Positions 36,995 to 55,491 of a stretch of 64,000 nucleotides of DNA are shown piece by piece. Position 1 is the first letter of the stretch; each line of letters begins with the position of its first letter. The notes under the pieces are model-generated. The model ran no database searches. It was not told the origin of the DNA and saw nothing but the letters and a program-made list of their open reading frames with translations. A program made the position numbers and the translations under genes. The DNA comes from Bellilinea sp. (GTDB lineage: Bacteria; Chloroflexota; Anaerolineae; Anaerolineales; Anaerolineaceae): contig BPHQ01000001.1 of assembly GCA_026003615.1 (NCBI GenBank), positions 372,001 through 436,000 on the forward strand. The letters run 5' to 3'.

Positions 36995-37010
36995 TTCGGC
37001 ATCTGTGTAA

Positions 37011-37285
37011 AAGCGATGATGGAAACGAGTAAGTTTGCACGCAGCCACAGCGAGTCCGGGCGGGTGTGAGCCGGGCGCAAAGCGGCAGACTGAAAATCCT
37101 TCCGGAGCTGCAAACTGAACGCAGGGTCATCTGTCAGTAGGGGCGCCGGCTTCGCCAGCCGTTAGCAGTGGCGCGAATATATCCTGGAAAAGGCGTATTC
37201 GGCTGAGTGCCTGCTTGAACAGCAGGAAACAGGGTGGTACCGCGAGAAAAACCCTCTCGTCCCTGTATGGGCAGAGGGTTTATGT
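37011..37285 (+). promoter_or_regulatory. T-box leader upstream of ileS
   Basis: T-box core AGGGTGGTACCGCG at 37231-37244; stem I AGTA element and candidate ATC specifier near 37096-37098; terminator accctct...agagggttt at 37251-37285. Confidence 0.92.
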
Positions 37286-40571: not shown

Positions 40572-41591
40572 ATGAAATCTAAAACCTCTGATTTGAAGTG
40601 GATGTGGTTAATTTTACTGGCGTCAATCCCGTTATTGGTTTGGTCGCTGGGTTCAACGCCGGTGAATGAGATTGTGCAGGTAATTTCCCGTCTGCACCTG
40701 GCTCAGATTGTGATTTTAGCCGGAGTCAACATTCTGGTCTTTCTTTTGATGGCATTGCGCTGGGAGATTATTTTGCGCGCCATGGGAATGAAAGTGCCTC
40801 TGATAAAGCTGGTCAGTTACCGCTTGACCAGTTTTGGAGTGAGCTACTTTACACCCGGCCCGCAATTTGGTGGCGAACCGGCCCAGGTTGCCCTTTTGAC
40901 CCGTCATCATCCTGTTCAAACCGCTCCTGCCATTTCTTCTGTCTATCTGGATAAATTATTGGAGTTATTGGTAAATATTCTGGTCATTGCTGGTGGACTT
41001 TTCCTCACTTTCAACGCAGGTTTTGGTAGCGAAATTCTCCGCCAAAATGGCTGGGTCTTGGTTTTACTGGTGAGCGTAGTCCCGGTAGCTCATCTTATAA
41101 CCTTGAAAAACGGCCGGTATCCTCTGAAATGGCTTTTAGAAAAAAGTGGGACATTGTGTTCAACCCGGCAGTGGATGCGCAAAACCGGCAATTTGCTGAT
41201 TGAGGCAGAAGGTCAGATTGCCATCTTCCTGGAAAGAAATCCGAAAAGTTTATTACTGGCAATTTTGGTGTCCCTGCTTTCCTGGGCGGGGATGATTTTG
41301 GAGTATTTTCTAGCGGCGCAATTTCTGGCTTTGCTCATGAATGGTCAGCAAGTTGCGTTTGCCTTCGTTCTCTCACGGCTTGCCTTTTTGGCGCCCTTGC
41401 CAGGTGGCTTAGGGGTTTTAGAAGCCAGTCAGGTTTTTGCAATGCAATCTGTGGGAATGCCGGCAGCGGCAGGTTTGGCATTGAGTTTATGGATGCGCGC
41501 CAGAGATGTGTCCATTGGGCTGGCAGGCCTGATAATGGGTGGCTGGTTTCTAAGCCGAACCGCCCCCTCAATTCAAGAGGATTTTAAGTAA
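40572..41591 (+). CDS. Lysylphosphatidylglycerol synthase TM/flippase-like (UPF0104) membrane protein
   Basis: 339 aa; multi-TM, LVSYRLTSFGVSYFTPGPQFGGEPAQVALL, LSRLAFLAPLPGGLGVLEASQVFAM. Confidence 0.8.
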   Translation: MKSKTSDLKWMWLILLASIPLLVWSLGSTPVNEIVQVISRLHLAQIVILAGVNILVFLLMALRWEIILRAMGMKVPLIKLVSYRLTSFGVSYFTPGPQFGGEPAQVALLTRHHPVQTAPAISSVYLDKLLELLVNILVIAGGLFLTFNAGFGSEILRQNGWVLVLLVSVVPVAHLITLKNGRYPLKWLLEKSGTLCSTRQWMRKTGNLLIEAEGQIAIFLERNPKSLLLAILVSLLSWAGMILEYFLAAQFLALLMNGQQVAFAFVLSRLAFLAPLPGGLGVLEASQVFAMQSVGMPAAAGLALSLWMRARDVSIGLAGLIMGGWFLSRTAPSIQEDFK

Positions 41592-41596
41592 AAGAT

Positions 41597-41965
41597 ATGG
41601 AGATAACCATGATGACTACTCGCTCAAAGATTGGGCTGTTGGGAGGTTTAATCATTTTGCTCACCCTTGCGACAGCCGCAATTCACATTTCCCTGCTTTT
41701 TCCAGATGTGGTGTTCATCCTGAATGGTTTGGGTTTCATCACGCTGGCTGCCGCTTACTTTTTGCCAATTCCCTTTTTGGCTCATCGAAGAAAATGGGTT
41801 GCCCTGGCTTATATGGGCTATACTCTGCTGACCATTCTCTTGTGGGTTGCCATTGGTGAACGATCCACGCTTGGCTATCTGACCAAGGTCATTGAAATTG
41901 CTCTGTTAATCGGTTTGTGGATAGACTATCGTCGGCGTTCATCCATCATTCCACCATTCTCTTAA
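41597..41965 (+). CDS. Small multi-pass membrane protein, unknown
   Basis: 122 aa with 4 hydrophobic segments. Confidence 0.6.
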   Translation: MEITMMTTRSKIGLLGGLIILLTLATAAIHISLLFPDVVFILNGLGFITLAAAYFLPIPFLAHRRKWVALAYMGYTLLTILLWVAIGERSTLGYLTKVIEIALLIGLWIDYRRRSSIIPPFS

Positions 41966-41985
41966 ATCATCATCGAGGTGTTGTT

Positions 41986-42639
41986 ATGGAAGAACCATTG
42001 ATACTCAACCAAATTGTGTGCGCCCGTGTTCCTACTGCCGTCGGGGAATTTCAACTGTGCCTGTATATCAATAATCGTGACGAGAAAGAACATCTGGCGT
42101 TGATTCGGGGGGATGTGTTCGGCAAAGAAAATGTGCCCGTCCGGATCCATTCGGAATGTTTCACGGGTGATGTTTTAGGTTCGCGCCGCTGTGACTGCGG
42201 GGAACAATTGCACCACGCAATGGAATATATTGCCCTGGAAGATTGCGGGGTTATTGTGTATTTACGGCAGGAAGGCCGCGGCATTGGTTTGATGGAAAAA
42301 CTACGGGCGTATAATCTACAAGATCAGGGATTGGATACGGTGGATGCTAATCTTGCTTTGGGGCATCCGGAAGATCAACGGGAATACAGTATGGCTGCAG
42401 CCATTTTGAAGGATTTGGGGGTTCGTTCGGTGCGTCTTTTGACCAATAATCCGGACAAGATTGCCGATTTAGAGAGCCACGGCATTCGCGTGGTTGAGCG
42501 AATACCACTCATCCCAACCATATATCCGGATAATGCTGCATACTTGATGACCAAAATCAAGCGGATGAATCATCTTCTGGATTCAGAAGTGCTTCAATTT
42601 GTTCATTCCGAATCGAATCGCAATGGAAAGCATTCCTGA
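41986..42639 (+). CDS. ribA: GTP cyclohydrolase II
   Basis: VRIHSECFTGDVLGSRRCDCGEQL, VYLRQEGRGIGL, DANLALGHPEDQREYSMAAAILKDLGV, LLTNNPDKI. Confidence 0.92.
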   Translation: MEEPLILNQIVCARVPTAVGEFQLCLYINNRDEKEHLALIRGDVFGKENVPVRIHSECFTGDVLGSRRCDCGEQLHHAMEYIALEDCGVIVYLRQEGRGIGLMEKLRAYNLQDQGLDTVDANLALGHPEDQREYSMAAAILKDLGVRSVRLLTNNPDKIADLESHGIRVVERIPLIPTIYPDNAAYLMTKIKRMNHLLDSEVLQFVHSESNRNGKHS

Positions 42640-43351
42640 TATTGAACTTGCGGTGATTGACTGGGTGAACCAGCATAAAAAATCGGCTGAAAATCAGAAG
42701 AAGCCGCTGGTTACACTCAGTTATGCCCAATCGCTGGATGGCAGCCTCACTATTCGACGAGGGATGCCGGTTGGATTGAGCGGACCGCAATCTCAGCGCT
42801 TGACTCACCGATTACGCGCCGTTCACGATGCCATACTGATTGGAATTGGAACGGTGCTTGCGGATGATCCTCAATTAACCGTGCGGTTGGTGAAAGGCAA
42901 GAATCCCCAGCCTGTCATCCTGGACTCTCGCCTGCGTATTCCCCTCGAATGTCAATTGTTGCGAAGGCAAGACTGCAAAGCCTGGGTGGCTTGTGCCGTG
43001 ACGGCGGAGGATACTCGAAAGAGAAAGTTGCTCAATCAGGGTGTTGATTTGATTCCTCTGCCGCGCCGTGGTGACCGCGGCCTGGATTTGGAAAAATTGC
43101 TGGAGGAGTTAGGGCAGCGAGGAATTGAATCGGTGATGGTAGAAGGGGGGGCCAAAGTCATCACCTCCTTCCTCACTGAAAGACTGGCGAATATAGCCGT
43201 CATCACAATTGTGCCGCGCTGGTTAGGTGGTTTGAATGTTATCGGTCGGCAGCGGGTGTCAGATCAACTACCTTCCCTTGCCAATGTCCGTTATGAAGCA
43301 TTTGGCAGCGATGTGGTCGCTTTCGGTGATCTGGAATGGGTGGAGCGCTAA
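42623..43351 (+). CDS. Stand-alone RibD C-terminal (reductase) domain protein, no deaminase domain
   Basis: VTLSYAQSLDGSL...DAILIGIGTVLADDPQLTVR...PVILDSRLRIP...VMVEGGAKVITSFL. Confidence 0.88.
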   Translation: MESIPDIELAVIDWVNQHKKSAENQKKPLVTLSYAQSLDGSLTIRRGMPVGLSGPQSQRLTHRLRAVHDAILIGIGTVLADDPQLTVRLVKGKNPQPVILDSRLRIPLECQLLRRQDCKAWVACAVTAEDTRKRKLLNQGVDLIPLPRRGDRGLDLEKLLEELGQRGIESVMVEGGAKVITSFLTERLANIAVITIVPRWLGGLNVIGRQRVSDQLPSLANVRYEAFGSDVVAFGDLEWVER

Positions 43352-44383
43352 ATGAAACGGCAGGTTTTGGTTCATCGGTCGGTTCGGAAAATTGAGATTG
43401 TGGAAGAAGATTGTCCTTCTCCGGCTGAAAATGAAGTGCTGGTTAAAACACGTATAAGCGGAATCAGTGCCGGCACCGAAGGGATGATCTATCAAGGTTT
43501 GTTCCCTGAAAATCTCGCCCTGGACGAGAGTCTGACTGCGTTGAAGGGTGAGTTCAGGTATCCCTTCCGTTATGGATATTGCTGTGTTGGCGAGGTTGTT
43601 GAATGCGGTAAAGGAATTTCCTCCACATGGGTTGGCAGAAGGGTCTTTGCCTTTCATCCTCATGCCAGTCATTTCACAATTTTGCTCAATGACTTAATTC
43701 CCTTACCCGACACATTGCGGGATGAAGACTCGGTTTACATACCTAATATGGAAACCGCCGTAAACTTTTTACAAGACGGTAAACCCGTGCTGGGTGAAGC
43801 AGTGATTGTGTTCGGCCTTGGCATGGTGGGACTCCTGACCATTGCACTATTGGGGCAGTTCCCGTTGGGCTTTCTGGGAGGGTTGGATTTGTTTCCCTAC
43901 CGGCGTCAGATTGCCCTCAGTCTTGGAGCGGACATTACCCTCAACCCGCTTGAATTTTCACAAGCCGGTTCATTACGCCGGGCGCTTGAATCGGCCGGGT
44001 TGCCTGCACTCGGTGCTGATCTGGTCTTTGAACTCAGCGGTCAACCGGAGGCTATCAATCAGGCAATTGAGGTGTGCGGTTTCCACAGTCGTATCATTGT
44101 TGGTTCATGGTATGGTCAGAAAACCGCTCCCTTAGCGTTAGGCGGTGAATTTCACCGCAACCGGATCAGAATTTTCTCCAGTCAGGTCAGTACGATTAAT
44201 CCTTCACTATCAGGGCGTTGGAGCAAGCAGAGGCGATTTGAGGTAGTTTTTCACCATTTGGAAAAGATAAAACCCGGTAACTGGATCAGTCATCTATTTC
44301 CGCTGTCTGAGGCTGATCAGGCATTTCAGCTGTTGGTTGATTCACCCCAACAGGTGCTGCAGGCAGTCTTCACTTACCGGTAA
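43352..44383 (+). CDS. Zinc-type medium-chain dehydrogenase-like protein
   Basis: VLVKTRISGISAGTEGMIYQG, YGYCCVGEVVECGKG, VIVFGLGMVGLLTIALL; start abuts RibD-like stop. Confidence 0.82.
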   Translation: MKRQVLVHRSVRKIEIVEEDCPSPAENEVLVKTRISGISAGTEGMIYQGLFPENLALDESLTALKGEFRYPFRYGYCCVGEVVECGKGISSTWVGRRVFAFHPHASHFTILLNDLIPLPDTLRDEDSVYIPNMETAVNFLQDGKPVLGEAVIVFGLGMVGLLTIALLGQFPLGFLGGLDLFPYRRQIALSLGADITLNPLEFSQAGSLRRALESAGLPALGADLVFELSGQPEAINQAIEVCGFHSRIIVGSWYGQKTAPLALGGEFHRNRIRIFSSQVSTINPSLSGRWSKQRRFEVVFHHLEKIKPGNWISHLFPLSEADQAFQLLVDSPQQVLQAVFTYR

Positions 44384-45327
44384 GATGCTTTACTGGCAGC
44401 TGCATGGGTGAGGGGAGGTTGATAACGAGGATGTGTGATCTCTCGAATTGTCCGCTCGTAAAGCGGCCGAATTTGGTCAATTAAGGCACGGGTGATTTCC
44501 TCCGGACGGCGATAACCGGATAAGGGGCGGGTGTCAATGGGCGGAAACAAATCTACCCGGACATCTACCGGCCACATTTTCGGAAACAGCTCTCGCATCA
44601 AAATTTGGAGGGTGGCTGCCAAACGGCGTTTATCCTCTGTCCGGCGGCGCAATAATGTGAGCGGATGATGGAGGGATGGAGCGGCAATTACACCACTGAC
44701 CAGTACGGGCAGGATTGGTAAGGCGGGAATCAGCCGAACGAACAAGCCGGTGCTTATGGACCATTCCTCAAGCGATTGAAGCGCCCCCGGCAACACCGAG
44801 GGATCTGGTTCAATTTTGCCACGAGGAAAGGTCAGCACAGCCCCACCAGCCCGCAAATGAGCGGCTGTTTGTCGAATGACTTCACCGCGTTGATTTTCTG
44901 ACTCTGGAACAAAGAATAAATAGCGGGCGGTGGCTGGTAAAGCGCGGAGGAAGGGTCGTTCGGCTGCCAGAACCCGTAAATCGGGTCGGGGCAACGCCGA
45001 AAAGAGGGCAAGTGTATCGGCCATGCCGGGATGATTGGAAAGGATCAAAACCGGTCCACTTTGAGGAAGATGCTCCTGACCGACGATGGTCAAGGAACGG
45101 ATGTACTGGTGAAGCATTCGCTGGGAACCACTGGCAAGACCGCCGGCCGCAACACCCCGGTCAAAATCCAGCACATGACGGGCGAACTTACGAGCGGGGT
45201 GTTCAAAAATAATTTGCGCCAGCGGACGTGCTGCTTTCCATTTCTCCAAGCCAAAAGAAATCAACATATCTTCAATGTTGATTTCAACCAAAGTTTGTTC
45301 ACTGGCACGATATTCGGTCGCATTCAT
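44374..45327 (-). CDS. PlsC-like 1-acylglycerol-3-phosphate acyltransferase
   Basis: ILSNHPGMADTLALFSAL, LTFPRGKIEPDPSVLPGA; start chosen at MNATEYRASEQ. Confidence 0.75.
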   Translation of the reverse strand: MNATEYRASEQTLVEINIEDMLISFGLEKWKAARPLAQIIFEHPARKFARHVLDFDRGVAAGGLASGSQRMLHQYIRSLTIVGQEHLPQSGPVLILSNHPGMADTLALFSALPRPDLRVLAAERPFLRALPATARYLFFVPESENQRGEVIRQTAAHLRAGGAVLTFPRGKIEPDPSVLPGALQSLEEWSISTGLFVRLIPALPILPVLVSGVIAAPSLHHPLTLLRRRTEDKRRLAATLQILMRELFPKMWPVDVRVDLFPPIDTRPLSGYRRPEEITRALIDQIRPLYERTIREITHPRYQPPLTHAAASKASYR

Positions 45328-45395
45328 GTTAAGATTATAGTAGGTTAATCGCTTGATTTGGGTTTTTATCATGCCATTGTAAAAGGAGTGAGAAC

Positions 45396-45773
45396 ATGTA
45401 CCGCGTGGGTGTCCGCAGGGATTTTATTTCTCAGCATTACTTGATAGGGGGTGATTGGGGAGCGGAGAATCAACTGCATTCTCATCCCTATCGTCTTGAA
45501 GTGGAATTATATGGCAGGAAGTTAGACCAACATCAATATCTTGTAGACATTGTAGCAGTTGAGCAGGCTTTGGATAAGCTGATCGCTCATTATCGCGATC
45601 ATATATTGAATGATTTACCGGAATTTGCGGGCGTTAATCCCTCGTTAGAGCATTTTGCACGGGTGTTGTGCGAATCGCTGGCGCAACAATTTCTTAATGG
45701 AACAGTTGAGCGTATCTCTGTCAAATTATGGGAAAACTCGGTAGCCTGGGCGGGGTATGAGGTGGCGCAATAG
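45396..45773 (+). CDS. 6-pyruvoyl-tetrahydropterin synthase/QueD-family protein with noncanonical active site
   Basis: 125 aa; QHYLIGGDWGAENQLHSHPYRLEVELYG, YLVDIVAVEQALD, ISVKLWENSVAWAGYE; RBS aaggag. Confidence 0.8.
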   Translation: MYRVGVRRDFISQHYLIGGDWGAENQLHSHPYRLEVELYGRKLDQHQYLVDIVAVEQALDKLIAHYRDHILNDLPEFAGVNPSLEHFARVLCESLAQQFLNGTVERISVKLWENSVAWAGYEVAQ

Positions 45774-46850
45774 GTGAAGGTCGGGCTGGTTATATACGGA
45801 GATATAAGCACTCTTTCCGGCGGTTATTTATATGACCGTAAACTGGTGGAGTATCTGCGTAATCAGGGTGATGCGGTGGAAATCATCTCCTTGCCGTGGC
45901 GGGATTACCTGAGCCATTGTCGGGATAACTTCAACCGCAAATTGCTAAAACGCCTGAAATACTTAAAAGTGGATGTGCTGCTTCAGGATGAGCTCAATCA
46001 TCCCTCGTTCTTTCTCTTGAATGGTACATTGAAAAAGTTTGTTCAATACCCGCTGGTCAGCATTGTCCATCACTTGCGTTGCTCCGAGAAGCATCCTTCC
46101 TTACTGAGGTGGGTGTATCGTCATATAGAAAGACATTATCTTAATACAGTGGATGGTTTTATTTGTAACAGTCAGACGACTCTTCAAACAGTAAAGGAAT
46201 TGCTGACCCATCCCAAACCTGCACTGATTGCAACTCCGGGTGGAGATGCTCTATCGGGTAAACCTGCCCCTAATTTGTATGCGCATAGGCATAACAGTCA
46301 AATTCAATTATTATTTGTTGGCAACTGGATTCCTCGCAAAGGGCTGCATATTCTTTTAGAGGCCTTGGCGCCTTTGGATGCTTTTCCGTGGCGGTTATCG
46401 CTGGTGGGCAGAACAAACCTGATTCCGTCGTATGAGCGAAAAATACAACATCAAATCACCACCAAAAGCCTTCATCACAGGGTACACATTCATGGTGCTG
46501 TTTCGGATGAGGAACTGGTCAGGTTGTGGCAATCTGCGGATGTGCTGGTTGTGCCATCCGAGTATGAAGGGTTTGGAATTGTCTATCTGGAAGCAATGCG
46601 GTTTGGGGTTATTCCGATTGGTGGCACGAACGGGGCAGCCGCAGAGATTATCCAGTCGGGGATTAATGGTTTTCTCGTCCAGACCAACTCTCCGGTGGAG
46701 TTACGGGACATTCTCAAGGTCATTATGATTGATCCGGGCTTGCGAGAAAGCCTCAAAAAGGCAGCCCGACAACGGTATGAGCAGTTTCCCACGTGGCAAC
46801 AGAGTATGAGGTGCGTTCGTCAATTCTTAATGGAATATTTTGTGGGGTGA
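45774..46850 (+). CDS. Family 4 glycosyltransferase (GTG start)
   Basis: LLFVGNWIPRKGLHILLEAL, LVVPSEYEGFGIVYLEAMRFGVIPIGGTNGAAAEII. Confidence 0.88.
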   Translation: MKVGLVIYGDISTLSGGYLYDRKLVEYLRNQGDAVEIISLPWRDYLSHCRDNFNRKLLKRLKYLKVDVLLQDELNHPSFFLLNGTLKKFVQYPLVSIVHHLRCSEKHPSLLRWVYRHIERHYLNTVDGFICNSQTTLQTVKELLTHPKPALIATPGGDALSGKPAPNLYAHRHNSQIQLLFVGNWIPRKGLHILLEALAPLDAFPWRLSLVGRTNLIPSYERKIQHQITTKSLHHRVHIHGAVSDEELVRLWQSADVLVVPSEYEGFGIVYLEAMRFGVIPIGGTNGAAAEIIQSGINGFLVQTNSPVELRDILKVIMIDPGLRESLKKAARQRYEQFPTWQQSMRCVRQFLMEYFVG

Positions 46851-46864
46851 AAAGGGAGGTAAAA

Positions 46865-47779
46865 ATGGAATGGTCGTTTGTCCGATATTTATCCGCCAAG
46901 AAATCTGTGGATGATCGGTCGCTCAATCGGCGAGTGTGGGCATCGCTGGAGAATGAGATACGGCATCATTCAGGGAACACTTCCCTTCGCATACTTGAAT
47001 TGGGTATGGGTATTGGCACGATGTTTCAACGGATGCTGGAATGGGGATTGATTGAAGAGGCGGAGTATATTGGGATTGACGCCGAAAAAGAAAATATTGA
47101 AACGGCACGGGATACCATTCCTTTATGGGTAAAAGAGCAAGGTTGGAATGCACAGGCTTTTGACCTTGAACCGTACCAGAACCGTCTCTTTCATGGGGTG
47201 ACTTATGCCTTCTTGAGGGCTGATTTGTATGACTTTTTACAGCAGACCCGCTGGCAGGATTATTTTGATCTGGTGATTGCCAACGCCGTATTGGATCTGG
47301 TGGACTTGAAGTTGGCTTTACCACTCATCCGCAATTGTCTGAAACAGAACGGACTGGGCTACTTTACAATCAACTTTGATGGCTTGACGGCTTTTGAGCC
47401 GATTATCCATGCTGAACTGGATGAGCAAATCATCCACCTGTACCATCAAAGCATGGATGAGCGATGCATCAATGGGAAGAATTCCGGAGAGAGTCGAACC
47501 GGGCGCCGTCTTTTCTCGGCGCTGGGTCAGGCCGGGTTTGAAATTTTGCAAGCCGGATCATCGGATTGGGCGGTCTTTCCTCGCGGTGGTCATTATTCAG
47601 CAGATGAAGGTTATTTTTTGCATTTCATCCTGCATTTTTTTGAAGAAACGATCCCAAAATACCCGCAAATTGACCCAAATGATTTTCAACACTGGTTGAA
47701 GATTCGTCGTTCCCAAGTTGATCAAGGAAAATTGATTTTTCTGGCTCATCAATGGGATTTTCTGGTAAGAAAACAATGA
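46865..47779 (+). CDS. Class I SAM-dependent methyltransferase
   Basis: LRILELGMGIGTMFQRMLEWGLIEEAEYIGIDAEKENIE; DLVIANAVLDLVDL; RBS gggagg. Confidence 0.82.
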   Translation: MEWSFVRYLSAKKSVDDRSLNRRVWASLENEIRHHSGNTSLRILELGMGIGTMFQRMLEWGLIEEAEYIGIDAEKENIETARDTIPLWVKEQGWNAQAFDLEPYQNRLFHGVTYAFLRADLYDFLQQTRWQDYFDLVIANAVLDLVDLKLALPLIRNCLKQNGLGYFTINFDGLTAFEPIIHAELDEQIIHLYHQSMDERCINGKNSGESRTGRRLFSALGQAGFEILQAGSSDWAVFPRGGHYSADEGYFLHFILHFFEETIPKYPQIDPNDFQHWLKIRRSQVDQGKLIFLAHQWDFLVRKQ

Positions 47780-48234
47780 TGATTGAGCGTTTTCCTGAAA
47801 GCAGCGGAAGTTATGTATTGGTATTCCGCATGAATAATGCGGTGGATCTTTCGGTTGGTAGATCAGGGAAATTTCATTTTCCGACTGGCGTTTATTTCTA
47901 CTGTGGTTCTGCGTTGGGACGAGGGGGGGTGCGTGGGCGTTTAAGGCATCACTTAAACCCGATTTCATTTCCACACTGGCATATAGATTACCTGCATCTG
48001 CATCGTGAGATTTTAGAAGTAATCTACTCCATTGGTGATGAGCAGATGGAGTGTCGGTGGACGCAATTTTTATTGACTCAACCTTCAGCGTTTATCCCGG
48101 CAGCCGGTTTCGGGGCTTCCGATTGTCGAAAAGGTTGCCCGGCCCATTTGATTGGTTTTTCAGTCTCTCAAATTTCGAAAATTTTAAGGAATTTTACCCT
48201 TGCATGGAATTGCCAACGCCTACCCATGGAATAA
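47776..48234 (+). CDS. DUF123 / GIY-YIG-like domain protein
   Basis: SGSYVLVFRMNNAVDLSVGRSGKFHFPTGVYFYCGSALGRGGVRGRLRHHL; ATGA overlap with methyltransferase. Confidence 0.8.
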   Translation: MMIERFPESSGSYVLVFRMNNAVDLSVGRSGKFHFPTGVYFYCGSALGRGGVRGRLRHHLNPISFPHWHIDYLHLHREILEVIYSIGDEQMECRWTQFLLTQPSAFIPAAGFGASDCRKGCPAHLIGFSVSQISKILRNFTLAWNCQRLPME

Positions 48235-48255
48235 AAATTGTGGTATAAGAAAAAT

Positions 48256-48430
48256 AACCCTGCTGTGTTCGTGATGCAGCACGACCGGTTTTGAGCCAAC
48301 ACCAATTAAGAGGGTTCCAACATCACTGGAGTGACGCGATAGACTTCGGTCAAGGCGGATCTCGGTGGAGGATCCCATACCTGCGAATGCAGGTTCAAAA
48401 CTACGCAGCACACGGCACGGCGGGGTTTTT
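48256..48430 (+). ncRNA. ssrS: Probable 6S RNA
   Basis: About 170 nt; closing stem ccctgctgtg / cacggcgggg-type pairing (with G-U), conserved-looking cctgctgtgttcgtgatgcagcacgaccggttttgagccaaca; upstream TATAAG; terminator follows. Confidence 0.72.
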
Positions 48431-50843: not shown

Positions 50844-53006
50844 TTAAAACCTGCCGCGTGGCTGGGATTCGAGAACGGCCGTCAGTTCTTCTTCGCTGGC
50901 GGGGGCAACCCGCACTACGGCGGCTTTGTATTCCGGTATCCTGGCTTGCGGGTCGAGTGCATCGGAGGTCAGCAAGTTAGCAGCTGCTTCCCGAAAGTGG
51001 AAGGGAATAAATACCACCCCGATGTTGGTTTTGGTGGTTACTTTTGCGCGCAGGACGATTGAACCGCGTCGCGAAGTCACCCGTACCGGGCTGCCATCTT
51101 TTATTCCCAAACGTGCGGCATCCGCCGGGTGAATATCCATCAATGCCTCGGGAAAGAGATCGTCCATCCATGAGTGACGGGTGAGGGTTCCACCGTGCCA
51201 GTGTTCCAATACGCGCCCGGTACTCAACACCAACGGATATTCCTCATCCGGCATTTCGGCGTTCGGGGTATATTCAAGTGAGTGGAATTTGGCTTTTCCG
51301 CGCGGAAACCGTTCGCCGTAAAGGAAGGGGGTACCGGGGTGATCGGGTGTTGGAACCGGGGTTTGTAAACCGACTTTTTCGATGCGTTCGTAACGAATAC
51401 CGGCATAATCCAGGACACAGCGTCCCATTTCTTCCAAAATTTCAGCGGGATGTTGGTAATCCCAATAAGCCGAATGAGGTCGGTTCAAGCGGTGTTCAAC
51501 CCGTTTGGCAAGATCGCAAATGATCTCCCAGTCCGGTCGGGATTGACCGCGAGGGGGAATGACCTGCCGCACTCGCTGTACCCGCCGATCGGTGTTGGTG
51601 AAAGTGCCTTCCTTTTCTGCCCAGGAGGCGGCAGGGAGGAAAACATCCGCAAAAGCCCCTGACTCGTTGATGAACAGGTCTTGTGCCACTAAAAATTCCA
51701 GTTCCTGCATTTTTTTGCGAGTGTGGTTGAGGTTGGGTTCGGACATCATAGGATTTTCGCCCATGATGTAGAGGGCGCGCACACCACCGGGGTGAACGGC
51801 TGCCAGAATTTCGGTGGTTGTTAAACCGCGTTGCCGGTTAAGTCCTCCCGGCTCAATGTGCCAGGCTTCTTCCCAGCGGCGGGCATTTTCTTCATTGTCC
51901 ACAGCCTGATAACCGGGGTAGTGCCATGGCATTGCGCCTGAATCGGAGGCTCCCTGAACATTATTTTGACCACGCAGGGGATTCAAACCGGTACCTTTCC
52001 GACCCACATGACCGGTCAACAGCGCCAGATTGATGAGACTCAAGGCGTTGGCTGTTCCGTGTGTGGATTCGGGAATACCAAGCGCCCAAAAGATAGCCCC
52101 ATTGCGGGCTGTGGCATACATCCGGGCTGCTTCGATGATCAACTGGCGATCAACCCCCGAAACCTGTTCGGCAAATTCGGGGGTAAATTTTTCCATGGAG
52201 GCTGCAAATTCTTCAAAATTTTCGGTGCGTTCTTCAATGAATTGGCGGTTATAGAGGTTTTCTTTGAGAATGACATGCGCCATGGCAGAAAAGACCGGTA
52301 CATCACTGCCGGGACGAATGGGCAGGTAAAGGGAGGCATAATTGACCATTTCAATGCGGCGCGGATCAACCACAATCAATTTCGCCCCATACTTTTGCAC
52401 GGCGGCTTTCATTTGCAGGGCGATGATAGGGTGATTCTCGGTCGGGTTCGAGCCAGTCAGGATGAATACATCGCAGTCCTTAACCTCTGCTGCGGTATTG
52501 CTCATGGCCGCTGAACCAATAGCCATTTGAAGGGCAACCACACTGGCGGCATGGCATAAGCGGGTGCAGTGATCTACATTATTGGTACGAAAAACGGCGC
52601 GGAAGAACTTCTGGAGGAGGTAGTTGTCCTCGTTGGTGGCTTTGGCGCAGCAATAAACTGCCATTGCCTTGGAACCATCACGTTGATAAATTTCCACCAG
52701 TCGGTCGGCGGTGTAATCGAGGGCTTCATCCCAACTGACTTCACGCCATTCCGAACGATCAAACGCTTGTGTGCGCTGCCCGGCTTTTTGGGGCTGTTTT
52801 CGGATGAGAGGCACGGTGACTCGTTCTTTGTTGTATATAAAGTCATACCCAAAACGTCCCTTGACGCACAAATTACCATGATTTACGACGGAGTCAAAAG
52901 GAGAGGTTACCTTGAAAATGAAGTCATCACGGACGTGCAATTCCAGGTTGCAGCCAACTCCGCAGTAGGGGCATGTCGTTGGGACAACTTTTTCAGCTTT
53001 CAACAT
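50844..53006 (-). CDS. fdhA: Formate dehydrogenase catalytic (molybdopterin/[4Fe-4S]) subunit, Cys form
   Basis: TTCPYCGVGCNLELHV; NNVDHCTRLCHAASVVAL; NPLRGQNNVQGASDSGAMP; start after ggaggaggaaaatctc. Confidence 0.9.
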   Translation of the reverse strand: MLKAEKVVPTTCPYCGVGCNLELHVRDDFIFKVTSPFDSVVNHGNLCVKGRFGYDFIYNKERVTVPLIRKQPQKAGQRTQAFDRSEWREVSWDEALDYTADRLVEIYQRDGSKAMAVYCCAKATNEDNYLLQKFFRAVFRTNNVDHCTRLCHAASVVALQMAIGSAAMSNTAAEVKDCDVFILTGSNPTENHPIIALQMKAAVQKYGAKLIVVDPRRIEMVNYASLYLPIRPGSDVPVFSAMAHVILKENLYNRQFIEERTENFEEFAASMEKFTPEFAEQVSGVDRQLIIEAARMYATARNGAIFWALGIPESTHGTANALSLINLALLTGHVGRKGTGLNPLRGQNNVQGASDSGAMPWHYPGYQAVDNEENARRWEEAWHIEPGGLNRQRGLTTTEILAAVHPGGVRALYIMGENPMMSEPNLNHTRKKMQELEFLVAQDLFINESGAFADVFLPAASWAEKEGTFTNTDRRVQRVRQVIPPRGQSRPDWEIICDLAKRVEHRLNRPHSAYWDYQHPAEILEEMGRCVLDYAGIRYERIEKVGLQTPVPTPDHPGTPFLYGERFPRGKAKFHSLEYTPNAEMPDEEYPLVLSTGRVLEHWHGGTLTRHSWMDDLFPEALMDIHPADAARLGIKDGSPVRVTSRRGSIVLRAKVTTKTNIGVVFIPFHFREAAANLLTSDALDPQARIPEYKAAVVRVAPASEEELTAVLESQPRGRF

Positions 53007-53025
53007 GAGATTTTCCTCCTCCGGT

Positions 53026-53751
53026 TTACGAGGGATTGGCGGAGATTTCTTCACGGCGTTTGCGGCGTTGTCGCTGGCTGCGCGTCAGATTCATGATTTC
53101 ATCGGGGGTGTAACCCATTTCCAGTAGCCATTGACGCTTTGGTTTGAGCGCGCCAGTTGGACAAACCCCAACACACTGTCCGCAAAATACACAGGTGGAT
53201 TCGGGCATGGGTATTTCGTAAAATGTGCTAATTTGGGTTTCGTATCCGCGCCCGGAAAAGTTGATGGCATAGGTGTACTGGGCATCCTCAGCGCACACCT
53301 GAACACAGCGCCAGCAGAGGATACATTTAGCGTAATCACGAATGTACATTGGATTGTCATCAATCACAGCCGGGAGGCGGGTTTCCGCATCTGGATACCG
53401 GTATACATCGGCGTGATATTCATGAATCATGGCTTGAATTTCTGGCGATTCGCTCAAATCAACAGTGGAAGCCAGTAATTCGAAAATGGTCCGACGAGAC
53501 CGGATGACCCGCTCACTTCGGGTGTGAATGACCATACCGTCTCGTATCTGTACCACACAAGCTGGTTGAAGTGTGCGCGCACCTTCTACTTCAACGACAC
53601 AGATTCGGCAAAGCCCGTTGGCCGTGCAATGATCATGGTAACAAATGGTTGGAATGGAAATACCTGCTTCGCGGGCAGCCTGTAAAATGGTGCTGCCGGC
53701 CGCTGCCTGTACAGTTGTTTGATCAATGGTTATGCGGATTGTATCGCTCAT
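53026..53751 (-). CDS. HoxU/NuoG-N-like iron-sulfur subunit
   Basis: [2Fe-2S] [21 protein letters not shown]...[32 protein letters not shown]. Confidence 0.9.
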
Positions 53752-53772
53752 GGGTTTGTCCTTCTTTGTTTT

Positions 53773-55491
53773 TCAGACGGTTTGAAACAGGTGAGGAAAG
53801 TGCTTCATCGCGCTTAGAATGGCGGATGCGGCGGTTTGTCCCAATCCGCACAGGGATGAGTCTGTCATCGTCCAACCGACATCTTGAAGGCGTTCCCAAT
53901 CTTCCTTGTGAATCTCACCTCGAACGATTCGTTCCATAATTTCAAACTGGCGTTGGGTGCCCATTTGACAGGGATAACACTTACCGCAGGATTCTTCGGC
54001 AAAGAAGCGTGCCAGTCGCAGACAAATGTCTCGCAGATCGCGGGTTTCATCAAAAACAGTGATCACCCCCGAACCGAGCGGCAAACCGGCTTCTTTCAAG
54101 TCTTCAAAAGTCAGTCGTACATTCAGGTGGTCCGTTGTGGCAAAGGCGCCTGCTGCTCCGCCAAACAAAGCTGCCTGAAAATGATGCCCCGGCCGGACAC
54201 CACCGGCCAGATCAAAAAGCAAATGGTGAAATGGGATCCCAAAAGGTACTTCGTACAGTCCGGGCCGTACCACATCACCCGAAAGACAGAATAATTTACT
54301 GCCGGGCGATTTTTCGGTGCCTAATTTACGATAATGGGATGCTCCTTTTCGGATGATCACCGGAACATTGGCGAGGGTTTCGACATTATTAATTACGGTT
54401 GGCTTACCAAACAAACCCTGTGTGGTTGGAAAGGGGGGTTTGAGCCTTGGGAATCCGCGCTTGCCTTCAATTGACTCGAACAGGGCGGTTTCTTCACCAC
54501 AAATGTAAGCACCCGCCCCGCGCCGAATTTCGATCTCGAAGTTGAATTCGGTATCGAGGATATTGCTGCCAAGAAAACCGGCTTCACGGGCTTCTTCCAC
54601 AGCATTTTTCATAGCCTGGTAGGGGAACCAGTACTCACCACGAATGTAGATATATCCTTTTTGCGCGCCGATGGCATATCCGGCAATGAGCATGCCTTCC
54701 AGAATACTGTGGGGATCGTCTTCCATTAGAACACGATCTTTAAAGGTGCCCGGTTCGGCTTCGTCGGCATTGCAGACGACGTACTTAACTTCGCTGGGGG
54801 CGTCAGCGGCGGCTTCCCATTTCAGACCGGTTGGAAAGGCTGCACCGCCGCGTCCAACCAACCCGGCGGCTTTAATTTCCTCGATGATTTGGCGTGGCGG
54901 AGTGCGGAGGGCTTTACGGAGGGCTTGATAACCACCTAAATCGAGGTACTCTGATAATTCAACGGTATGACCCAAACCGCAGTTAGCTGTCAGAATTGAA
55001 ACTGTACCGCCCAATACACTGGATGGACGTTCGCCTTTGCCACTGACCAGATCCTGCCAGGTTTGACGGTCGGCTCTGGCGATGGGCTGACCCTGAACCA
55101 GTGCGGCGGGGGCGTGTTCACACAGGCCGAGGCACGGTGCCATTTCAATGGTTAATGCCGATTGTGGACTGTCTGCCGGGGAAGCTTCTTGATGAAAGCG
55201 GATTTGTTTGAATAGCGTTTCGGAGCCGGCCAGCGCACACGCCGGGTCATTACATATGTGAATGACGGTTTTGCCGACCGGTTGGCTATAAAACAAGGAA
55301 TAAAATTCGATGACTCCAAAAACCTCGGCAAGTGGTACGTTCAATGCCTGGGCGATAGCTTCGGCGGCCGGCTTTGGAATGTAACCGTAAAGTTGTTGGG
55401 CATCATGTAAGGCCGGTAACAGGGCGGTTCGCCCCTGTGAGTGGTAACTTTCCAAGCGATGGAGAAGCGGACTTAAATCCAATTCGGACAT
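53773..55491 (-). CDS. NuoE-NuoF fusion: NADH-binding flavin/iron-sulfur subunit
   Basis: N-term CNDPAC...CLGLCEHAPA (NuoE); GRGGAAFPTGLKW, GAGAYICGEETAL, ESCGKCYPCQMG (NuoF). Confidence 0.92.
   Translation of the reverse strand: MSELDLSPLLHRLESYHSQGRTALLPALHDAQQLYGYIPKPAAEAIAQALNVPLAEVFGVIEFYSLFYSQPVGKTVIHICNDPACALAGSETLFKQIRFHQEASPADSPQSALTIEMAPCLGLCEHAPAALVQGQPIARADRQTWQDLVSGKGERPSSVLGGTVSILTANCGLGHTVELSEYLDLGGYQALRKALRTPPRQIIEEIKAAGLVGRGGAAFPTGLKWEAAADAPSEVKYVVCNADEAEPGTFKDRVLMEDDPHSILEGMLIAGYAIGAQKGYIYIRGEYWFPYQAMKNAVEEAREAGFLGSNILDTEFNFEIEIRRGAGAYICGEETALFESIEGKRGFPRLKPPFPTTQGLFGKPTVINNVETLANVPVIIRKGASHYRKLGTEKSPGSKLFCLSGDVVRPGLYEVPFGIPFHHLLFDLAGGVRPGHHFQAALFGGAAGAFATTDHLNVRLTFEDLKEAGLPLGSGVITVFDETRDLRDICLRLARFFAEESCGKCYPCQMGTQRQFEIMERIVRGEIHKEDWERLQDVGWTMTDSSLCGLGQTAASAILSAMKHFPHLFQTV

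Follow-up and report, generated by a model that had tools for sequence, protein, structure and literature searches.

A Chloroflexota form of a widespread gene cluster around GTP cyclohydrolase II and a PTPS-fold protein, probably for a glycosylated, methylated pterin-like product

Nine genes lie tightly packed between positions 40572 and 47779 of the window, that is, the whole 64,000-nucleotide stretch of Bellilinea sp. DNA analysed here (contig 1, positions 372001-436000, of a 1.65 Mb genome that is 71.5% complete). According to Pfam, NCBIfam and the reading of the open reading frames (ORFs), they encode GTP cyclohydrolase II (RibA, GCH II), a RibD_C reductase, an MDR dehydrogenase, a PTPS-fold protein, a GT4 glycosyltransferase and a methyltransferase, together with an acyltransferase and two membrane proteins. 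Judged by sequence comparison, the set represents a real pathway and amounts to a variant, from Chloroflexota, of the SCO6650-type cluster, whose product would probably be a glycosylated, methylated, perhaps lipid-linked pterin-like molecule. The full reading, in which the locus is the Chloroflexota version of a pathway that is widespread but uncharacterised and leads to a lipid-attached, glycosylated and methylated pterin-like or ribityl-pyrimidine product, is given a probability of about 0.5.

From known enzymology, GCH II would convert GTP to 2,5-diamino-6-ribosylamino-4(3H)-pyrimidinone 5′-phosphate, and RibD_C would turn this diaminopyrimidinone phosphate into its non-deaminated ribityl form. 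More tentatively, the dehydrogenase may oxidise the ribityl chain, and the PTPS-fold protein may bind the 2-amino-4-oxopyrimidine via a retained Glu and shape or cyclise it, which might give a pterin-like or ribityl-pyrimidine core. This core would then be glycosylated and methylated. Its attachment to lipid would fall to a CDP-alcohol phosphotransferase in many lineages and to a PlsC-type acyltransferase (AcylT) in the lineage of the window, and an LPG_synthase_TM protein (LPGS_TM) would move the lipid-linked product across the membrane.

Layout and recurrence of the gene set

The spacing of the genes is operon-like. From LPGS_TM to the dehydrogenase, the intergenic gaps are 5, 17, -14 and 0 nt, while those from PTPS to GT4 and from GT4 to the methyltransferase are 0 and 14 nt. 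A preliminary description of this DNA had given the gene families, their order and their strands correctly, as every family that it named was recovered with Pfam and NCBIfam. Nevertheless, its gene list left out the two genes at the start of the interval, which encode LPGS_TM and a small membrane protein (TMx). By the PTPS protein, the closest named relative is Bellilinea caldifistulae, with 89% identity.

The gene set recurs far beyond chance. A profile-guided scan of GTDB species genomes gave 543 stretches encoding PTPS relatives, and the best 80 were taken, which makes the census lean to Chloroflexota. Neighbours were then assigned by profiles at the 54 PTPS loci flanked by no less than 6 kb on either side. 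In this census, PTPS is found near GT4 in 49 loci, near the dehydrogenase in 44, near the methyltransferase in 33, near RibD_C in 32 and near RibA in 31; the corresponding counts are 26 for TMx, 24 for LPGS_TM, 19 for the CDP-alcohol phosphotransferase and 15 for AcylT. RibA and RibD_C are even fused into a single protein in 11 loci (two confirmed with Pfam). A third PTPS type, with the motif FGPATxxHGH, has a GT4 neighbour in 6/6 cases and a dehydrogenase in 4/6. As a negative control, true QueD loci (CxxxHGH) were inspected, and none of the five has cluster neighbours within 1.5 kb.

A similar association is observed at the level of genomes. The cluster dehydrogenase is carried by 44 of 251 Chloroflexota genomes, and a PTPS-family match is present in 41 of these 44, within 10 kb in 31 of them, against 35 of the 207 genomes without the dehydrogenase (Fisher p ~2e-22, phylogeny uncorrected; as species share ancestry, the p-values in this work are guides only). 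The genes co-occur even when they are scattered, as in family f60, where PTPS and RibA-dehydrogenase-GT4 lie on different contigs.

The cluster recurs in Chloroflexota, Methylomonas, Rhizobium, Methylosinus, Streptomyces and haloarchaea. For instance, the order dehydrogenase-PTPS-GT4-methyltransferase is found in annotated Haladaptatus, Natronorubrum, Streptomyces, Thiodictyon and Rhizobium sp. SL42 sequences, and Methylosinus trichosporium OB3b has the same dehydrogenase-PTPS-GT4 order with an unnamed protein at the place of the methyltransferase. Haloarcula pelagica has GTP cyclohydrolase III (GCH III), dehydrogenase, PTPS, methyltransferase and CDP-alcohol phosphotransferase, and a Rhizobium plasmid carries a complete set including LPGS_TM, CDP-alcohol phosphotransferase, RibA and RibD. 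Since the same set occurs in Chloroflexota, Proteobacteria, Streptomyces and haloarchaea, with first enzymes that are not homologous, a conserved product is suggested. The preliminary description had made its proposal of a metabolite locus depend on co-occurrence of the families outside this genome, and such co-occurrence turns out to be widespread in the census, in the Chloroflexota genomes and in other phyla. As a separate observation, the PTPS gene of Haloarcula marismortui (L152 10021-10458) is unannotated, and its frame seems to shift near the HSH motif, so that it may be frameshifted.

Entry from GTP and the pyrimidine intermediate

The window GCH II (41986..42639, + strand; PF00925, 236 bits) has the three Zn-binding Cys as well as Asp126, Arg128 and Tyr105, in the numbering of a typed-in E. 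coli RibA sequence, which matches the 2bz0 chain in the stretch compared. In an alignment of 62 GCH II sequences, both cluster-linked and unlinked, the equivalents of the Zn Cys, Asp126 and Arg128 are found in all, and Tyr105 is kept in 61. Only the Streptomyces copy departs from this, having Met there. In an S. coelicolor GCH II paralogue, Met at this position is said to stop the reaction at the formamidopyrimidine. A formamidopyrimidine-producing GCH II is unsupported in the window, as Tyr105 is kept. Haloarchaeal clusters carry GCH III, which likewise yields formamidopyrimidine. A creatininase-family gene, from the family to which the archaeal formamidopyrimidine deformylase belongs, is present in the Streptomyces and H. 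marismortui clusters, the only two among the loci read. Taken together, the entries through Tyr-type GCH II, Met-type GCH II and GCH III, with creatininase, appear to lead to one and the same diaminopyrimidine.

The reductase (42623..43351, + strand; PF01872, 149 bits) is a RibD_C protein without a deaminase domain. In this family, the choice between the deaminated and the non-deaminated substrate depends on the residue at the position of Lys151 in BsRibG, which corresponds to Thr35 in yeast Rib7 and is Asn in archaea (PMC3631187). The window protein has Ser there, and among 52 readable cluster RibD_C sequences this residue is Ser in 28, Thr in 16, and otherwise Ala, Cys, Asn or Gly, with Lys in none; Lys is present at this place in RibD from two genomes that carry RibH. 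The equivalents of Glu180, Asp83 and Thr79 are retained in nearly all cluster sequences. The cluster reductase is predicted to use the non-deaminated intermediate and, because Lys is lacking, the product should keep the 2-amino-4-oxo pattern of guanine. This supports the earlier view of a non-riboflavin metabolite locus that GCH II feeds, in which a reductase predicted to take the non-deaminated compound is followed by the PTPS-like protein, GT4 and methyltransferase.

The absence of riboflavin genes points in the same direction. In the host genome, GCH II and RibD_C (no deaminase) each occur once, and neither RibB, RibE nor RibH was found in it at 71.5% completeness. These three are also missing from all of 21 Anaerolineae relatives (20 of the same order, 1 of the same class), many of which carry GCH II. 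Since those genomes are 96-99% complete, the missing rib genes are not explained by incompleteness alone. Control genomes gave RibB and RibH in 14/14 and RibE in 11, and no FMN riboswitch was found at the cluster with Rfam. In G145, a more distant genome that has RibH, the RibH-linked RibA lies on contig 42, and RibA-dehydrogenase-GT4 on contig 258. Thus, the earlier statement that the window holds no standard riboflavin operon, as RibB, RibE, RibH and the deaminase are missing, extends to the whole genome and to the 21 relatives. It had left room for a complete rib operon elsewhere in the genome, or for this pair as the riboflavin source; all three partners are missing there too. On gene content, the RibA/RibD_C pair cannot be the source of riboflavin in these organisms, and supply by unlinked genes is ruled out by the same absences. 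GCH I was found in the host and in 18 of the 21 relatives; consequently, folate pterins have a separate source, and the cluster is an unlikely one for them.

Two observations were made in a family of the same order, f2. First, it has a further RibD_C-RibA pair, unlinked to the cluster, whose selectivity position holds Asn (L138, L139, L141, L142, L143, L149, L150); downstream of it there is often an SDR, an alpha/beta hydrolase and/or a membrane protein with several spans that resembles DMT-type transporters. This pair is also found in G046 and G072, both without PTPS and all riboflavin synthases, and it possibly belongs to another non-riboflavin GCH II pathway. Second, a PF04029 gene (2-phosphosulfolactate phosphatase family) lies between dehydrogenase and PTPS in part of f2 (L041 9425-10108, Pfam), and an ORF of equal length takes its place in L042 (7789-8475). 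The PF04029 protein might remove the 5′-phosphate.

The PTPS-fold protein (45396..45773, + strand; PF01242, 91 bits) carries the motif W-G-A-E-N-x-x-H-S-H (DWGAENQLHSH) and has no catalytic Cys. The Cys position is occupied by Glu, within an E-N pair that is invariant across alignment A1. In relatives the motif is mostly GxEN..[HN]SH, and the first His of the motif pair, a Zn ligand, is Asn in 12 of 85 relatives with a strict-pattern match. The T-fold, the three Zn-site His (H14, H28, H30) and the pterin-anchoring Glu (in WE) place the window protein in the PTPS fold superfamily. Its AlphaFold model (pLDDT 92) has SCO6650 as best PDB match (3d7j; 29% identity, Foldseek E 3.6e-10), and a profile search likewise ranks SCO6650 first. 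The nearest NCBIfam model, TIGR03367, scores far under its cut-off. The protein has the adjoining GCH II and RibD_C genes that go with PTPS-IV and lacks the FGPAQ signature; in a tree with long branches and low resolution, the window type is separate from the FGPAQ and FGPAT types. Two other assignments were rejected. QueD (PTPS-I) would require CxxxHGH, whereas Glu stands at the Cys position and HSH replaces HGH. PTPS-III would require ExxHGH, whereas Glu lies four residues ahead of the His, not three, and HSH again stands for HGH. The neighbours differ in both cases. As the Cys is replaced and the Zn His variable, no standard PTPS or QueD chemistry is expected. From its motif, the protein can be predicted to bind the 2-amino-4-oxo pattern via the conserved Glu (W-E-N).

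The dehydrogenase (43352..44383, + strand; PF00107/PF08240) belongs to a cluster-specific MDR subfamily in which the catalytic Zn ligands have apparently been lost. In the window protein, AGTE replaces CGTD and GYC replaces GHE (alignment A3), and it thus lacks the Cys and His of Zn-dependent MDR alcohol dehydrogenases. The SxGTE/YGY pattern is conserved in relatives, with YGY invariant in 13 of them. The protein is an MDR dehydrogenase, as had been proposed, but its description as Zn-type does not fit these residues. Downstream, the GT4 glycosyltransferase (45774..46850, + strand; PF00534, 115.7 bits) matches PimA/PimB weakly, and its matches also include tetrahydrobiopterin glucosyltransferases, among many other GT4 enzymes. 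For the class I S-adenosylmethionine-dependent methyltransferase (46865..47779, + strand; PF13847, 37.6 bits), a PDB sequence search returned no relative.

Lipid genes and alternative products

The preliminary description overlooked a lipid module, which consists of a CDP-alcohol phosphotransferase or AcylT, plus a flippase-like protein. In the window, the latter is LPGS_TM (40572..41591, + strand; PF03706, 118.8 bits), a LPG_synthase_TM / UPF0104 membrane protein with an annotated relative in the Rhizobium plasmid cluster. It is followed by TMx (41597..41965, + strand), a multi-spanning protein of 122 amino acids without a Pfam match, of which a relative is present in the H. marismortui locus. 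AcylT (44374..45372, - strand; PF01553) is co-oriented with the other cluster genes in several relatives (L039-L041, L043, L074, L089, L105). The CDP-alcohol phosphotransferases of relatives carry the motif DxxDGxxAR...GxxxDxxxD; its catalytic residues, every catalytic Asp among them, are invariant in the 12 sequences compared, which come from Chloroflexota, Proteobacteria and other bacteria, Streptomyces and haloarchaea. This enzyme and AcylT occur together in 0 of the 54 loci (hypergeometric p ~4e-4, without phylogeny). No strong relative of the phosphotransferase was found elsewhere in AcylT-type genomes, nor was the enzyme found in the window's genome at its 71.5% completeness. The two may be read as alternative routes for attaching the product to lipid.

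Several observations weigh against the full reading. The window AcylT is on the opposite strand, and neighbours vary between loci: in f2, RibA and RibD_C are mostly elsewhere, and the methyltransferase is missing from several loci. The co-occurrence tests are uncorrected for shared ancestry, and an ordinary pterin made by the cluster would be redundant, as GCH I is present. In addition, G216, a relative of the Anaerolineaceae family, has CDP-alcohol phosphotransferase-LPGS_TM-TMx downstream of a 1051-amino-acid IleRS-like ORF (L156 9222-11829), with no RibA, PTPS or dehydrogenase near these lipid genes in L156. The lipid module may therefore be separable, either independent or a remnant.

The G216 arrangement also favours the most serious alternative, which is less probable than the lipid-attached product but quite credible: the entry would be the same, the glycosylated, methylated pterin or ribityl-pyrimidine would be soluble and serve as a pigment, a cofactor or a secreted metabolite, and the membrane genes would belong to a neighbouring lipid pathway. 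Neither CDP-alcohol phosphotransferase nor AcylT is nearby in 20 of the 54 loci, and the tetrahydrobiopterin glucosyltransferases among the many GT4 matches are consistent with such a product. By contrast, the CDP-alcohol phosphotransferase lies beside pterin genes in Streptomyces, Thiodictyon, Rhizobium, Methylomonas and haloarchaea, a linkage too wide for a local neighbour effect. A bolder version of the lipid-attached reading, which seems rather unlikely as a whole, would be a membrane lipid shared by bacteria and haloarchaea, with a glycosylated, methylated pterin or ribityl-diaminopyrimidine head group derived from GTP through GCH II or GCH III, possibly serving as a membrane-bound redox or light-absorbing cofactor.

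Other alternatives fare worse. The cluster might be a redox bypass to 7,8-dihydroneopterin 3′-phosphate, replacing GCH I chemistry by the reductase, C2′ oxidation of the ribityl chain and ring closure. The order GCH II, RibD_C, dehydrogenase, PTPS would fit, as a 2′-ketone and the 5-amino group could close the pteridine ring, and the PTPS fold retains its pterin-anchoring Glu. Nevertheless, GCH I in the host and in most relatives makes ordinary neopterin redundant, and no residue evidence speaks for the dehydrogenase substrate, so that this bypass is improbable. Little more can be said for a role in supplying a 5-amino-6-ribitylaminouracil-like precursor for F420, which follows a suggestion about PTPS-IV in the part of PMC5041015 consulted, where PTPS-IV is attributed to F420 synthesis on unpublished grounds. 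A gene for a PPOX-class F420-dependent oxidoreductase is indeed found near the Streptomyces cluster, but the established precursor is the deaminated 5-amino-6-ribitylaminouracil, and the cluster has neither a deaminase nor reductases with Lys. The F420 pathway is not known to include a GT4, methyltransferase or PTPS step. Finally, it is hardly credible that RibA and RibD_C make riboflavin with unrecognised partners while the remaining genes are unrelated: both are riboflavin-pathway activities, but RibB, RibE and RibH are absent where controls show them, and in G145 the RibH-linked RibA sits apart from the cluster dehydrogenase.

Around the cluster, a DUF123 gene (window 47752-48234) lies downstream of the methyltransferase gene and is also near 9 related loci, and a 6S RNA (RF00013, window 48254-48430) lies just 3′ of the cluster and the DUF123 gene. 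Further downstream, ORF translations alone indicate formate dehydrogenase-like and NuoF/HydB-type subunit genes (window 50844-55491, - strand). On the other side, a T-box leader (RF00230, window 37007-37267) precedes an isoleucyl-tRNA synthetase gene.

Comparison with known systems

The closest known arrangement is in PMC5445326, in a passage of which GCH II (PF00925) and RibD_C (PF01872) are placed beside PTPS-IV (561 sequences, FGPAQ) with no function given. Literature searches on the product, on the function of SCO6655/SCO6650 and on pterin lipids gave nothing functional beyond the passages of this paper and of PMC5041015. Thus, the locus can be called undescribed, as it had been, in the sense that no function or product was found, whereas its neighbourhood appears in PMC5445326 and a structure of SCO6650 exists (3d7j). 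A search of both papers by term gave no passage that mentions the lipid genes, the fusions of RibA with RibD_C or the selectivity for the non-deaminated substrate, and these are new relative to the passages found. The SCO6650 family, an orphan for which a crystal structure exists and no function was found, gains testable substrate predictions. In addition, GCH II and RibD are routinely labelled as riboflavin-pathway genes, and the PTPS of this cluster as belonging to queuosine synthesis. Both labels look wrong here; consequently, riboflavin prototrophy and queuosine are probably over-predicted.

With the SCO6650-type neighbourhood (PMC5445326; structure 3d7j), the window shares a Cys-less PTPS fold, and it also shares GCH II, RibD_C, MDR dehydrogenase, GT4 and methyltransferase, with the CDP-alcohol phosphotransferase in relatives' clusters. 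It differs in having WGxEN..HSH instead of FGPAQ..HGA (~29% identity to 3d7j), Tyr instead of the Streptomyces Met in GCH II, no creatininase, and an acyltransferase instead of the CDP-alcohol phosphotransferase. The bacterial riboflavin operon (ribD, ribE, ribBA, ribH) likewise has GCH II and a RibD reductase domain, but the window cluster lacks RibB, RibE, RibH and the deaminase, and its reductase lacks the Lys for the deaminated substrate. The archaeal and fungal RED/Rib7 branch, where the reduction precedes the deamination, has a reductase-only protein and, as in the window cluster, a small selectivity residue (PMC3631187), although the window reductase is not followed by a deaminase or lumazine synthase. 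QueD (PTPS-I, queuosine) shares the fold and corresponds to the nearest NCBIfam model, whereas the window protein has no Cys, the motif ENxxHSH and other neighbours. Finally, the assembly of phosphatidylinositol mannoside-type lipids uses a similar combination of enzyme classes (CDP-alcohol phosphotransferase, GT4 and acyltransferase), but no inositol genes were seen here, and the head group would instead be a pyrimidine or a pterin.

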